DNA of 64,000 nt, taken from the NCBI RefSeq assembly GCF_000744095.1, contig NZ_JQLI01000008.1, positions 3,038,001-3,102,000 of the forward strand. The letters are read 5' to 3'. Both the position numbers and the translations under genes were made by a program. Below, one piece after another: positions 2,052 to 45,614 of the stretch; the first letter of the stretch is position 1; the number at the start of each line of letters is the position of its first letter. The DNA comes from Cupriavidus necator A5-1 (lineage in GTDB: Bacteria > Pseudomonadota > Gammaproteobacteria > Burkholderiales > Burkholderiaceae). The notes under the pieces are model-generated. The model was not told the origin of the DNA. It did not search any database and saw only the letters and a list, made by a program, of their open reading frames with translations.

Positions 2052-2120
2052 GTTAGCGTGGACTGGGCTTCACGCAATGCGGGGATATGCTGGGGCGGAC
2101 AACGCAACCCATGCGCCTCA

Positions 2121-2510
2121 TCAGCCCGGCCCCGACGGGCCCGCCTGCGGCGGACAGCCTGCGCGCCGGCTAGTCAGCGCCCGCCACCATTGGCCTGACA
2201 GCACGTAACGCGGGAACGTGATCCATTGCTCGGCCAGGATGCGGCCGGCGATATCGGCCGGGCCCGCGAACGGCTCCGGCGCGTGCGCTTCCAGCCGGTG
2301 GCCGCGGCCCTGCAAGGCCATCGACATGCCCATGCACACCAGCCCCAGCGCCACCGCCGGCAGGCTCAGGCGCAGCAGGCCATAGATGCCCAGCACCGTG
2401 CCCGCCATGAACATCGGCACGGCCACGATATGCAGCAGCAGGTTGCGGGGATGCTGGTGGTTGCGGCCATAGCCGCGCCACTGCCAGCGCAGCAGCGGTT
2501 CGTCGCGCAT
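2121..2510 (-). CDS. DUF962 (Mpo1-like) membrane protein
   Basis: Small protein of about 129 residues resembling the DUF962/Mpo1-like family, whose yeast member is a fatty-acid alpha-dioxygenase. Visible are the N-terminal HQHPRNLLLHIVAVPMF segment, two adjacent hydrophobic stretches (LLHIVAVPMFMAGTVLGIYGL and LPAVALGLVCMGMSMAL) and a later GHRLEAHAPEPF stretch with the His residues expected of the family. The start was placed at the ATG preceded by a clear GGGAGAG ribosome-binding site; a longer frame upstream has no such signal. The C-terminus is rich in Gly, Pro and Arg and may be a relaxed tail. It follows cysB on the same strand after about 285 bp, so it is probably transcribed separately. 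No substrate can be assigned. Confidence 0.65.
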   Translation of the reverse strand: MRDEPLLRWQWRGYGRNHQHPRNLLLHIVAVPMFMAGTVLGIYGLLRLSLPAVALGLVCMGMSMALQGRGHRLEAHAPEPFAGPADIAGRILAEQWITFPRYVLSGQWWRALTSRRAGCPPQAGPSGPG

Positions 2511-2795
2511 GATGGTCTCTCTCCCTTGCCCCTCTTTCCTTGGCCCTGGTCCGGACTGGATGGTCCCGGTACGGCCAGCCGCGCGCATTATTTGTTGCGC
2601 TGCGGCACACGCGCGGCGCACGCGGTATGGCAATGCGCGGCACGTGCAGGGACTTTACCCCTCACACGGGCATGAAGAAAGACTCTTGCGACGAACGGCG
2701 GGCACGGGGCGCGAACTGCACCGTGCGGGGGTGGACGGCGGGGGTGGAGGCAGCGTCAGGTGCGGCCTGCGCCGCTCCGTGCGCCGTCCCAGGGT

Positions 2796-3740
2796 TCAGG
2801 CCGCCAGTGCCTGGCGCTCCTGTTCCGACAGCGCGCTGGTCACGGTATCGCGCGACAGGTGCGGCGCGAACATGTTGATAAAGGCATGTGCGTAACCGCG
2901 CAGGTAGGCGCCGCGGCGCACCGCCACGCTGGTGGTGTTGGAGGCGAACAGGTGGTCGGCCGAGATCCGCACCAGCCCGGAGTCCTTGCGCTCGTCATAG
3001 GCCATCGAGGCGATGATACCCACGCCCAGCTCCAGCTCGGCGTAGGTCTTGATCACGTCGGCGTCCAGGGCGGTCAGCACGATCTCCGGCTGCAGCCCGG
3101 CTTCGGCAAAGGCGCTGTCGATCTTGCGGCGGCCGGTGAAACCGGCGTCATAGGTGATGAGCTGGAAGCCGGCCACGTCTTCCAGCGTCGGCTCGGGCAG
3201 GCGCGTGAGCGGATGGTCGGGCGAGACCACCAGCACGTGCTGCCAGCTATAGGCCTCGAACGAGGTCAGCCCGGTCTCGGTCGCCAGCGCCTCGGTGGCG
3301 ATGCCGATATCGGCCTGGCCCGTCAGCAGCAGTTCGACGATATGGGTCGGCGACGCCTCCTGCAGCGCCAGCGTCACGTGCGGGTATTCGCGGCGGAACG
3401 CCTGCACCACGCGCGGCAGCGCATAGCGCGCCTGCGTGTGGGTGGTGGCCACGGTCAGGCGCCCGGTATGGCGGCCGGCGAACTCGTCGCCGGCCTGGCG
3501 CAGGTTCTCGGCCTCCTGCAGCAGGCGTTCGACGATGCGCACGATCTCGCGCCCGGGCTCGGTCAGGCCGGTCAGGCGCTTGCCGTAGCGCTCGAAGATC
3601 TCCACGCCGAGCTCTTCCTCCAGCTCGCGGATCTGGCGCGATACGCCGGGCTGCGAGGTGTAGAGCGCGTTGGCGACTTCGGTCAGGTTGAACTGGCGGC
3701 GCACCGCCTCGCGGATCGATCGGAGTTGCTGGAAGTTCAT
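2796..3740 (-). CDS. cysB: LysR-type regulator CysB
   Basis: Transcriptional activator of sulfate and sulfonate assimilation, which in this family responds to N-acetylserine or sulfate/APS. The N-terminal winged helix-turn-helix (residues about 5-60) contains [20 protein letters not shown], typical of CysB/Cbl rather than generic LysR proteins. The co-inducer domain follows from about residue 92 ([16 protein letters not shown]). The length of 314 is close to the usual 313-324. The ATG overlaps the stop of cysA by 4 bp, so it is the last gene of a cysTWA-cysB operon, an arrangement common in Burkholderiaceae. Besides its own operon it may control the adjacent ssu genes and sbp; that regulon assignment is inference. 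Confidence 0.95.
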
Positions 3741-42421: not shown

Positions 42422-42436
42422 AGCCAACCCCCAAAC

Positions 42437-42448
42437 AAAAAGCCAGGC
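42437..42448. terminator. Left arm of a bidirectional terminator split by the element
   Basis: AAAAAGCCAGGC here and GCCTGGCTTTTT at 45582-45593 are perfect inverted halves. Joined through the 4-base ATCT they would make a short bidirectional terminator between the convergent NlpC/P60 and pit genes. The mobile element has separated the two arms by 3.1 kb. Confidence 0.8.
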
Positions 42449-42453
42449 ATCTG

Positions 42454-42479
42454 TCCAAGGGGGTCGCTTAAAGTGTTGA
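42454..42479 (+). repeat. Left terminal inverted repeat
   Basis: 26 bp; the inner 18 bases (from GGTCGC to GTTGA) are identical to the right repeat in inverted form, and 22 of 26 match overall. The repeat ends in TTGAC, so it also contributes a -35 hexamer to the promoter of the nuclease gene. Confidence 0.85.
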
Positions 42480-42506
42480 CGGGGGTAACGAGAAAAGCAT
42501 AGAGTG

Positions 42507-42522
42507 CTGTATATCCATACAG
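42507..42522 (+). promoter_or_regulatory. LexA (SOS) box of the nuclease gene
   Basis: CTGTATATCCATACAG, i.e. CTGT-N8-ACAG, the canonical SOS-box form. It sits 16 bp before the TTG start and just after a TTGACG / TAGAGT promoter-like pair. An identical 16-mer precedes the damaged small gene near 59.77 kb, and two related boxes precede lexA itself. Confidence 0.85.
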
Positions 42523-42538
42523 TGCTCTAGGTAGGCCT

Positions 42539-44302
42539 TTGCTCCACACCTTTGAAGCCCGCCTCAATCTGACCCCCGAGTTAGCCGCCTTGTTGGCGGC
42601 TAACTCGGAACGCTGGTCGTGGGGCGCGCGTAAGGCTTGGAGTCTTCTGTATCGACAAAACCTCACTCGAACGACCGCCTACGCCACCTTAACGAGGGAA
42701 GGCTTTACCTCGCATCAAGTCGATTCCATGCTGACGCAAGCTGAAATGCGCCATGCAGGCTTGGTCGAACTCAAAAAGTACGAACGAGGTCAGCTTGAGC
42801 TGGCCATTCAGCGACGCGAATGCGCACTAGCCGACAAAGGCAAGAAAATTCAGGCCCTGTCAAAACGGCAAGCCAAGCTACGCGCTCAACGCGATAAAGT
42901 AGCACCGAAGCCGGGGAAAGCCCGTTCAAACCGCTACCTTACGACGCTAGCCCGCCTACGGGAAGTCGATACCGAACTCGAATTTTGCCGCAACTGGGTC
43001 GCACAAAAAGAACGCGTTCTTACTGCCAAGCGCGGCAAGCTGTCCGCGCTGCTTAAAGCTATTGATGAAGGCCGCTACAGTCTCTGTTTTGGCTCGAAGA
43101 AGCTGCTTCAGCAGCGGCCCGGCGAACACAACACCGAGACCACTCCATTCGCCTCTGTCGAGGATTGGCACGAGGCCTGGGACACAGCCCGAAACGGTCA
43201 GGTCTGGTCGATAGGACATACGGCTAAGCCCAGCGGCAATAGCAATCAGCGCTGCGCGGGCCGCGCCCCGATGCGAGGCAAAGTCGACCCCGTCAATCAC
43301 AATGAATCGGCATTTCATGCGAAGGGGCATCACCTTTTGCGGCCCTCCGCTGCGAGGAATGCCCAAAGCGTCCGTCAACGCTCGCTTGCAGATACCAAAT
43401 GCGCTCGCCGGCCGGTGATAGCCTTTGCAAGAGCCGCATTGTGACAGGCCGCTTTCCAAACGCGTCACGTTCCCACCGGTTTCAACCCAGAGACCGCTCG
43501 CACTAGAGAGGCTGGTGTCCTTGGACTGGATTTGAATGCCCGGGGCGTTGCCTGGGCTGTGGTGAAGCCCGATGGGAACCGGTTGCGGGAGGGTCATCCG
43601 CAGAGCGGCTTTCTCGGCTGGGACCTAAAAGGCCTTTCCGACGCTGTACGCAAGCAAGTCATCGGAACAACCGTTGCAGAGCTTGCCCGCCTGGGCAAGC
43701 GCCTAGGCCTCGCAGTGGCCATCGAGAACCTGGATTTCGCGACGAAGAAGGCCGGCTTGCGCGCCGGCGGCGTCAACAAGCGATACAACGAGATGCTGAG
43801 CTCGTTTGCAAGCTCACAGTTCGCAGAGCTGATGACCCGTGCCTGTGAAAAAGCTCATGTTCGGCTCTATTTGGTGAACCCTTCGTACAGTTCGGTCGGA
43901 GGCTTCACCAAATATGGCCGTCCCAATCGAATCGGCGCGGATGAGTCCGCCGCTCTTTGGTTGGGCCGGCAAGCTTTGTACGGTATCCCCTGGAAGACAG
44001 TGGGTGCCCAGTGCTTCGTCAAGAGGCACAACGAGCGACTCGTCTTTTCGCACCTGCCAGCCACCCCGAAGCAGAGCAAGACGGCCCTGGCAGGGGCTCA
44101 ATGGAGAGATGTCGCTCGGGCTCTAGGCAAGAACCGGAAGCGATGGGGTGAAAACCTCCGCAATTGGTTCCTCTGCCAGGTCGAAACCCTTCCCCGCAGA
44201 CCGTCTGCGAGCCTGGTGTGGCGTCATTGCCAACGGGATAGAAGTGTGGTTTTCAGCTCGAGACCTCTAGTGTCCTGCGTCAGAAGTTCCTTGCATTATT
44301 AA
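42539..44302 (+). pseudogene. TnpB/Cas12-like RuvC nuclease, interrupted
   Basis: The N-terminal third reads as one frame from a TTG: LHTFEARLNLTPELAALL, then a helical, coiled-coil-rich stretch to about residue 180, then FGSKKLLQQ. The C-terminal part reads in the same frame and has three RuvC motifs: GLDLNARGVAWAVV (first Asp), LAVAIENLDFATKKAG (Glu) and RIGADESAAL (last Asp). No CxxC zinc ribbon is visible between motifs II and III, unlike classic TnpB. Between about 43.25 and 43.50 kb the frame is lost: an in-frame TGA lies at 43442 and the sequence does not look coding on the plus strand. The last codons come from the IS630 end inserted in the 3' part. It is therefore broken, though the RuvC half could be made separately. 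Confidence 0.75.
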
Positions 44303-45432
44303 CACCACGTAGTAGTCTGCGTTGAAGGCACGCAAACGGCGAGACGGTGATGAGAGGAAGACCAAAGGCGGAACTTGTGTTGAGTGAGGTCGAACGTGAG
44401 CAGCTCAAGGCGCTGACGATGCGGCGCAAGACCGCACAGGCTTTGGCCTTACGAGCGCGCATTGTGCTGGCTAGCGCTGAAGGCCTGGACAACAAGACCG
44501 TCGCGGCAAAGCAGCGTGTCACTCAGCAAACCGTATCGAAATGGCGTGCGCGCTTCGTGGCGCATCGGCTCGATGGACTGCTCGATGCGCCGCGACCAGG
44601 GGCACCGAGGACCATCGGTGATGCACAGGTGGATGCGATTATTGCCAAGACGCTCGAATCCGTGCCAGCCGCCGCCACCCACTGGAGCACGCGCAGTATG
44701 GCTCGCGCGGCGAATCTATCGCCGTCGACCGTGACGCGTATCTGGCGTGCCTTTGGACTGCAGCCTCATCGACAGGAGACCTTCAAGCTCTCCACCGACC
44801 CATTGTTCGTGGAGAAGGTGCGCGATATCGTGGGGTTGTACCTCGACCCACCGCTCAAGGCCATGGTGTTGTGCGTTGACGAGAAGAGCCAGATTCAAGC
44901 ACTGGACCGCACGCAACCCATGCTGCCGCTGGCGCCAGGCATCCCCGAGCGACGCACGCACGACTATATGCGCCATGGCACGACAACGTTGTTCGCCGCG
45001 CTGGACATCGCCACAGGAAAAGTTATCGGTGAATTGCATCGCAGACATCGCAGCAGTGAGTTCCTGCAGTTTCTACGCACGATCGAAGCCAACGTGCCAC
45101 CCAAGCTTGATGTGCATCTCGTCATGGACAACTACGGCACGCACAAGACGCCGTCGATCAAGGCTTGGTTCGCTCGCCATCCGCGCTTCCATGTTCATTT
45201 CACACCGACCTCCGCCTCATGGATCAATCAGGTGGAACGCTGGTTTGCAACCATCACCGAACAATACATCCGCCGCGGCACGCATCGCTCAACCCGACAA
45301 CTTGAGCAAGCCATCCATCAATACCTTGACCTGAACAACGCCAACCCCACGCCTTTCGCGTGGACGAAGTCCGCCGATGACATCCTCGCCAGCATCAGGC
45401 GATTTTGTCTACGAATTTCTGACGCAGGACAC
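44270..45432 (+). mobile_element. IS630-family insertion sequence
   Basis: Complete 1163-bp element. The ends share the inverted sequence GTGTCCTGCGTCAGAA, one base mismatched just inside, and both flanks carry the dinucleotide TA that IS630 elements duplicate. Removing it restores CTC-TA-GGACC. It is inserted into the 3' end of the nuclease gene of the larger element, so it arrived second. Confidence 0.92.
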
Positions 45433-45435
45433 TAG
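44350..45435 (+). CDS. IS630-family transposase
   Basis: Intact DDE transposase of 361 residues. The N-terminal helix-turn-helix region includes [22 protein letters not shown] and a second DNA-binding part [20 protein letters not shown]. The catalytic core has the acidic residues in [28 protein letters not shown] and [15 protein letters not shown]. The start ATG is preceded by an in-frame GTG. The stop TAG is completed outside the element: T and A belong to the duplicated target and G to the flank. No frameshift is seen, so it may be active. Confidence 0.94.
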
Positions 45436-45506
45436 GACCTCGAGCGGCGCAGTGAAAACTGCGTTTTGTCGCCGTGTTCTCTTGTGGAAGAAATTTTGCC
45501 TAAGAG

Positions 45507-45540
45507 AATGGCCATCTCTGCTAGTCCAGAGATGGCCATT
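45507..45540 (+). other. Perfect 14-bp hairpin near the right end of the element
   Basis: AATGGCCATCTCTG and its exact complement flank a six-base loop, just inside the right terminal repeat. It may be a transcription terminator, a structural end needed for mobility, or the remnant of a guide-RNA scaffold, since TnpB guide RNAs are made from the right end of their elements. The IS630 insertion now separates it from the nuclease gene. Confidence 0.6.
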
Positions 45541-45550
45541 GAGAATTACA

Positions 45551-45576
45551 TCAACACTTTAAGCGACCGCCTAGGG
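45551..45576 (-). repeat. Right terminal inverted repeat
   Basis: Inverted partner of the left 26-bp repeat (22 of 26 identical). Directly outside lies CATCTG, the presumed target-site duplication, then the right arm of the split terminator. Confidence 0.85.
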
Positions 45577-45614
45577 CATCTGCCTGGCTTTTTGTTGTGC
45601 TGGCCGATCCCGCG

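Follow-up and report, generated by a model that had tools for sequence, protein, structure and literature searches.

A 64,000-nucleotide (nt) stretch of Cupriavidus necator A5-1 (contig NZ_JQLI01000008.1, positions 3,038,001 to 3,102,000; hereafter the window) carries an element bounded by terminal inverted repeats (TIRs) that contains the remains of a gene for a TnpB-like nuclease. Elements known to carry TnpB, the ancestor of Cas12, have transposases of two types, those of IS605 and IS607. The window element belongs to a small, real family of non-autonomous elements that combine a TnpB-like nuclease with IS4-like ends and targets. It is probable that these elements are cassettes, in which IS4-family-type ends enclose the nuclease gene and a 3′ RNA region, and which are moved by an IS4-family transposase acting in trans. 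The parts of this arrangement are already known, and their combination in bacteria appears to be new. An earlier note on this DNA, made from the letters alone, had proposed a TIR-bounded element with one RuvC-type gene and no transposase of its own, riding a DDE-type carrier mobilised in trans.

Six copies were found, five in Cupriavidus and one in a Rhodoferax metagenome-assembled genome (MAG), and all of them have paired TIRs and target duplications of 9-10 bp. The hosts are soil bacteria. The copies are the following:

Copy A: the window element; nuclease gene broken.
Copy B: locus L006, in the same genome as the window; nuclease intact, 590 amino acids (aa), gene at L006:3004-4776.
Copies C and D: loci L013 and L018 in genome G261; C is intact, and D is broken, because its matches fall in two frames.
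Copy E: in genome G220 (same as L029); nuclease gene broken.
Copy F: locus L030 in the Rhodoferax MAG; the best segment is 60% identical, and the gene contains a run of N.

The Cupriavidus copies A-E have the left end CAAGGGGGTCGCTTAAAGTGTTGA (with one extra G in D) and the right end CTAGGCGG.. (CTAGACGG.. in E), and the ends of the Rhodoferax copy are CTAGCCTTTCCGTTAACTTGTTGA and CTAGCCGTTCCGTTAACTTGTTGA. The ends differ between the two diverged lineages, yet within each they remain inverted copies of one another, as expected if one transposase binds both. When 299 family genomes were searched for the Cupriavidus TIR pattern, allowing up to 3 mismatches, ten ends were obtained, all at the five Cupriavidus copies, in three genomes; the reversed control pattern did not occur in the same genomes. 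The TIRs are not a product of chance, since the same ends recur in inverted pairs around the same gene in the four further Cupriavidus copies, and since the pattern was restricted to those ten ends. The TIR-bounded element was thus confirmed, and the follow-up that the earlier note had suggested yielded further copies with the same ends and duplications (four in Cupriavidus, one in Rhodoferax) and, in copy B, an intact nuclease. That note had also named two outcomes that would speak against it, ends missing from all relatives and ends belonging to a larger known transposon: the ends are present in relatives, and no such transposon was found in the genomes searched.

The window element spans positions 42456-45574 (3119 bp, including a nested IS630 of 1163 bp). 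These boundaries were set by comparing the six copies and replace 42454-45576. The TIRs, first described as imperfect repeats of 26 bp, are real but 24 bp long, with 22 of the 24 bases matching, and the flanking repeat CATCTG of 6-8 bp proved to be the core of a 10-bp target duplication with one mismatch. A 46-nt inverted repeat (89% complementary, 42434-42479 and 45551-45596) has two layers, the inner one being the element TIRs and the outer one the arms of a host terminator-like hairpin. Along the window the features are:

42436-42455, no strand: the A-tract and 5′ stem arm that form the left half of the host terminator-like hairpin, with the left target duplication GGCATCTGTC at its end (42446-42455); from the sequence and the fold of the empty site.
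42456-42479, plus strand: left TIR CAAGGGGGTCGCTTAAAGTGTTGA, identical in B, C and E, and one base different in length in D; from the inverted repeat and the comparison of copies.
42539-44241 (end approximate), plus strand: remains of the TnpB-like nuclease gene, broken; from open reading frames, comparison with copy B and the guided_TnpB profile.
43243-43467, no strand: a pair of neighbouring in-place inversions within the gene, accompanied by a loss of about 70 nt relative to copy B; from comparison with L006.
44270-45432, plus strand: nested IS630-family insertion sequence with a TA target duplication, which does not belong to the carrier; from its TIRs, its transposase match and its absence from copy B.
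45433-45574, plus strand: 3′ non-coding, presumed guide-RNA region, severed from the gene by the IS630 and containing a hairpin at 45507-45540; from the fold z-scores of the equivalent regions in copies B and F.
45551-45574, minus strand: right TIR, reading CTAGGCGGTCGCTTAAAGTGTTGA on that strand; from the inverted repeat and the comparison of copies.
45575-45596, no strand: right target duplication GGCATCTGCC (45575-45584), with the 3′ arm of the host hairpin and its T-tract; from the sequence and the duplication analysis.

The IS630 is a later, nested guest, inserted behind the nuclease gene. It is complete in the window (transposase at 44347-45435; E 2.2e-79 with the IS630-family profile); without it the window element measures 1954 bp, compared with 2024 bp in copy B and about 2.0 kb in the relatives. 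The absence of a transposase held for the carrier, but the interval does contain this complete, nested one. Beyond it, the reading frames of the window element and of copy B include no transposase, and the 2.0-kb element of copy B has TIRs and no second long reading frame. Because a DDE transposase of its own is lacking besides the nested IS630, we class the element as a cassette with IS4-like ends and not as a member of IS4. It does not have the makeup of IS200/IS605 or IS607 elements either, i.e., a TnpA of the Y1 or serine recombinase type and no TIRs.

The RuvC-type gene noted earlier is indeed TnpB-like, but the window copy is broken, with two segments inverted in place, about 70 nt lost, and a frameshift. 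Relative to L006, the stretch 43243-43467 consists of the two inversions, and the remainder is more than 99% identical to copy B. The RuvC part of the nuclease matched the NF040570 guided_TnpB profile with E 7.7e-7 (28.7 bits, against a cut-off of 100), and that of the window gene with E 3.4e-7, also under the profile cut-off. No Pfam family match and no extra domain were recognised in the nuclease, and the PDB sequences gave no match up to E 0.1. The predicted structure of the window fragment (mean predicted local distance difference test score of 33) was not used. The nearest relatives are TnpB-type proteins of about 535-690 aa with 25-32% identity (25-27% in the four that were aligned). As in these IS607-type proteins, the RuvC residues D354 and E419 are invariant (six aligned rows), and the alignment places a third acidic residue, D491, within ADESAA or ADEGAA in both lineages of TIR-borne nucleases. 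Unlike the latter, the four aligned long TnpB-type proteins (L079, L183, L016 and L181) have H at the third position, several of the IS607-type relatives adjoin a serine recombinase, and no convincing TIRs were found at the loci of distant homologues (4 loci, then 11 besides copies B and F). In a tree of nine rows, a fully supported branch separates the two TIR-borne proteins from the rest; the tree was rooted at the midpoint for drawing and does not give the direction of change, and 7 of the 14 homologue loci had been dropped because the motif filter missed their reading frame. Protein searches gave matches in 4 of 399 genomes at the level of the order (own genome included, the others weak), in 2 of 369 at the level of the class (own included), in 5 of 220 of the Rhodoferax MAG family (MAG included), and in 19 plasmid records, all below 60%, and none of these was a further close member. 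A search of viral contigs that detects close relatives only gave no nuclease match.

The target sites point to the IS4 family. The duplications are of 10 bp in A (one mismatch), B and C, and of 9 bp in D, E and F (one mismatch in F); those of B, C, D and E are without mismatch, and in D one extra base lies between the right end and the repeat. All six copies have a duplication of about one helix turn, which is a feature of the IS4 family. PMC2266710 gives duplications of about 10 bp for the family (8-10 bp for the IS4Sa subgroup and 10-13 bp for IS4) and a marked target specificity for some IS4 and IS4Sa elements; the word 'terminator' is not used there. It also places in IS4Sa the element ISRm22, which, according to PMC1525189, inserts at the axis of repetitive extragenic palindromes. 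When the empty sites of our six copies were rejoined, hairpins were obtained with the insertion point in the loop, and in five of the six an A- or T-tract flanks the stem (A before, T after). Five copies lie in the loop of a terminator-like hairpin, and the sixth hairpin (D) is degenerate. The reconstructed targets of A, C and F are CAAAAAGCCAGGCATCTGCCTGGCTTTTTG, AAAAACGCCGCCCTGCGAGGCGGCGTTTTT and AAAAAGGGCG..CGCCCTTTTT, and the empty site of A folds at -25.0 kcal/mol. Contiguous stems of 15, 12, 9 and 11 bp were measured in A, C, E and F, and each was matched by fewer than 1% of 20,000 control positions, which are conservative because they were drawn from the same loci and hence include such sites. 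The six targets had a mean fold energy of -21.8 kcal/mol, whereas 2,998 control windows gave -13.2 kcal/mol (p 4e-4). No conserved target-adjacent motif was evident by eye beside the six insertion sites.

The same preference was observed with many autonomous IS4 elements. A DDE_Tnp_1 search of three Cupriavidus genomes gave 78 matches, and the ends were inspected at 30 loci and at 18 further or repeated ones. One of them, L037, in the window's own genome, encodes an IS4-family transposase (NF033592, 6.2e-74), has the TIR TAATGCCGTTCAGTTAAG, and is inserted in the loop of AAAACCCCGCC-CCCGT-GGCGGGGTTTT with a 12-bp duplication. The right TIR of the Rhodoferax copy shares with it 12 of 13 core bases at GCCGTTCnGTTAA, at a distance from the end that differs by one base; its similarity to L037 was the best among 20 TIR sequences (p 0.0005, the floor of 2,000 shuffles), and that of the left Rhodoferax TIR gave p 0.0085, both values being uncorrected for the number of comparisons. 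IS4 elements of the L037 type were found in 13 of 60 Cupriavidus genomes, and 11 plasmid loci with relatives were taken from 770 records (Burkholderia, Paraburkholderia, Caballeronia, Rhizobium, Photobacterium, Shewanella, Pantoea and Vibrio); both sets often lie in terminator-like hairpins. Sixteen IS4 sites were measured, for which the script required an exact TIR; five of the 11 plasmid loci (L090, L091, L092, L095 and L096) and split or partial IS4 copies fall outside this set. Eight of the 16 have stems matched by fewer than 1% of controls, four are intermediate (L087 and L117, 7 bp, p 0.04; L086 and L124, 6 bp, p 0.09), and four (L088, L089, L093 and L110) give no stem signal by the contiguous measure; L086 has no clean duplication. 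The fold energy of the 16 sites was -18.8 kcal/mol (p 4e-5). The comparison elements were IS4 and IS186 of E. coli, and by eye no hairpin was evident at the site of the E. coli IS4 copy. We also observed that IS4-family elements with the TIR TAATGCCGTTCAGTTAAG (L037, L098, L099, L101, L120, L122, L123 and L094) are often inserted in terminator-like hairpin loops and flanked by 12-bp duplications.

The Rhodoferax end sequence, the duplication of about one helix turn and the insertion into terminator loops are three IS4-family features, and they support the DDE-type carrier that the earlier note had proposed; the trans mobilisation that it had added is our inference too, as no transposase with matching ends was found. 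Several results weigh against an IS4-family carrier. The Cupriavidus TIR matches L037 at 8 of 11 bases, no better than it matches some other families; its right copy scores best with IS186 (p 0.03), which we take to be of the IS4 family, with other families close behind, and its left copy scores best with a non-IS4 element (p 0.09). The duplications are of 9-10 bp, and those of the IS4 elements mostly of 12 bp. Taken singly, targets B (5 bp contiguous, p 0.19) and D (6 bp, p 0.09) fall short of significance, B being a stem of nine positions with one mismatch of which the contiguous measure counts 5. ISRm22, cited above for its palindromic targets, has 6-bp repeats according to PMC1525189. The closest relatives of the nuclease sit next to IS607 recombinases. 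The TIR occurred only at nuclease elements in the 299 family genomes, and an 18-base core (up to 2 mismatches) was found in 60 Cupriavidus genomes only at nuclease elements and at two unpaired sites. Finally, an intact candidate IS4 is present in one of the four genomes that carry the element: G000 has one intact and one interrupted copy, G261 fragments only, and G220 and the Rhodoferax MAG no candidate at E≤1e-10.

An autonomous partner was not found with the TIR pattern in the four host genomes or in viral contigs. Plasmid DNA searches with the Cupriavidus ends (E up to 10) gave 143 and 5 records, and there was no partner among the matches listed (20 of 143 and 5 of 5), which fall inside the query and not over the terminal TIR. 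Since the ends of the element were found only with the nuclease (ten ends, in three of the 299 family genomes; the core added two unpaired sites in the 60 Cupriavidus genomes), we infer which transposase acts, and its action in trans, from the ends and the targets.

Could the carrier belong to another, unsampled transposon family with duplications of about 10 bp, the IS4 likeness of ends and targets being convergent? No IS4 element with matching ends (CTAG..GTCGCTTAAAGTGTTGA) was found in the genomes searched, and the Cupriavidus TIRs match IS4 ends weakly. However, the Rhodoferax end sequence, the duplication length and the terminator-loop targets are all IS4-like together, and similar ends were not found at the other transposase loci inspected (30 and 18, an end repeat not having been found at each), so that we regard this explanation as unlikely. 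It is highly improbable that the element is moved by the nuclease itself, acting as a RuvC enzyme able to excise and insert the TIR element that encodes it. In favour of this, no other gene was recognised in the element, its ends were seen only together with the nuclease and no partner transposase was found; the RNase H-like fold is common to RuvC and DDE transposases. Against it, TnpB proteins make up the relatives at 25-32% identity, several of which lie beside IS607-type recombinases and lack convincing TIRs, there is no recognised extra domain, and self-mobilisation is not needed to explain IS4-like ends and targets. That the element is an ordinary IS607 or IS605 element minus its transposase, with inverted repeats coincidental to the hairpin, is barely credible even with IS607-type nearest relatives: the 24-bp TIRs are common to copies at different sites and both ends changed together in Rhodoferax, 9-10-bp duplications are present, which to our knowledge IS605 and IS607 do not make, and all six copies would have to stem from a single insertion, a possibility ruled out by their differing flanks.

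The preferred explanation, a cassette moved by an IS4-family transposase, includes a 3′ RNA region. The last 145 nt of copy B and the last 142 nt of copy F gave fold z-scores of -5.08 and -4.63 (none of 200 shuffles was as good in either case), and two control stretches of copy B gave 0.17 and 0.19. In the minimum-energy folds of both copies, part of the right TIR pairs with an upstream stretch. These predicted folds suggest that a structured RNA is likely to be made from the 3′ region, and that the strongly folded 3′ end may be a guide RNA. In a five-row consensus fold, both-sided changes were observed in 11 of 53 pairs, all of them in F by alignment. The covariation thus depends on one lineage split; the consensus fold omits the TIR stem, F disrupts many of the pairs, and the covariation term is unfavourable (+0.72), all of which counts against the preferred explanation. 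No Rfam family matched the region up to E 1.

In the preferred explanation, an IS4-family DDE transposase encoded elsewhere would bind both TIRs and excise the cassette, which would be pasted into a GC-rich terminator hairpin, at its loop, with duplication of about 10 bp. The nuclease would probably be guided by an RNA of the right end, whose 3′ scaffold would extend into the right TIR and whose guide would be the flanking host DNA. Copies of that terminator without the insertion could then be cut by the nuclease, which could favour the copying back or the retention of the cassette. Both the production of the RNA and the cutting by the nuclease are predictions; a strong fold is predicted where such an RNA would lie. 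It is a tentative idea, and one that we hold with some doubt, that the right TIR is used twice, as a transposase binding site and as the 3′ scaffold of a guide RNA, that the guide derives from the terminator, and that the nuclease serves to home or retain a DDE element at terminators.

To hold that no TnpB relative lives in a TIR element would also be too broad, because eukaryotic Fanzors do (PMC10711439). These are the closest parallel: PMC10711439 describes Fanzors in DDE and other eukaryotic transposons, among them a non-autonomous TIR element of SfAV that encodes a Fanzor only and has TIR bases inside the guide RNA, and TnpBs without TnpA are left uncategorised there. As described there, Fanzor TIR transposons resemble our element in having a TnpB-related nuclease as sole gene, TIRs and target duplications, and share the presence of TIR bases in the guide-RNA structure, which here is a predicted fold only. 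Unlike it, they belong to eukaryotic or viral hosts, another nuclease clade and other transposon families, whereas here we have a bacterium, IS4-like ends and terminator targets.

Mobile insertion cassettes (MICs, such as MIC231 of IS231, of the IS4 family) have IS4-family-type ends around a passenger gene and no transposase, as does our element. Their ends match a known insertion sequence, while the ends of our element have no exact partner and are related only to an IS4 group; we know of no MIC passenger so far that is an RNA-guided nuclease. The IS4 subgroup of E. coli IS4, ISVvu2 and L037 shares the TIR core (in the Rhodoferax lineage), the duplication of about one helix turn and, in many elements, terminator-loop targets. 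It differs in that its members encode a transposase, have ends that begin with TAATGCC and, in the Burkholderiaceae copies measured, mostly make 12-bp duplications. By title and abstract, we recognised in the open-access literature no bacterial TnpB in a DDE TIR element and nothing on IS4 elements in terminators, each of which is weak evidence of absence. In eukaryotes, Fanzors went over later to DDE and other transposons. A bacterial lineage has apparently made a Fanzor-like switch of carrier, which would mean that switching is not a eukaryotic peculiarity. It would also offer a small, tractable system in which to study the adaptation of a guide-RNA scaffold to new transposon ends. The insertion in terminator loops predicts unusual guides, each half a palindrome, and raises the question of whether the nuclease tolerates them.

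Several candidates were rejected. The plasmid match H105 (Rhodoferax-like end, E ~2) lies inside a dehydrogenase-like reading frame and showed no partner end, and a partner end is likewise missing at L153 and L154 (2 mismatches); we attribute them to chance. At Thermaerobacter L181 an ISLre2 element directly precedes a TnpB-related gene (405-2028 and 2087-3697); as a second DDE association it was discarded, since the end repeats of ISLre2 delimit an element that stops short of the gene, so that the two are adjacent and not one element. Elements with a transposase of 580-600 aa and a terminal CTAG share the end CCGAACTTTG, and their CTAG is apparently target-derived. A second IS4-like group with the TIR CAATACTGTTCAGATA was set aside as it inserts at different sites. 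This group (L130, L141 and L145-L150) has a TGA within the matched frame and eight matches in one genome, and several of its targets contain CTAG or TTAG.

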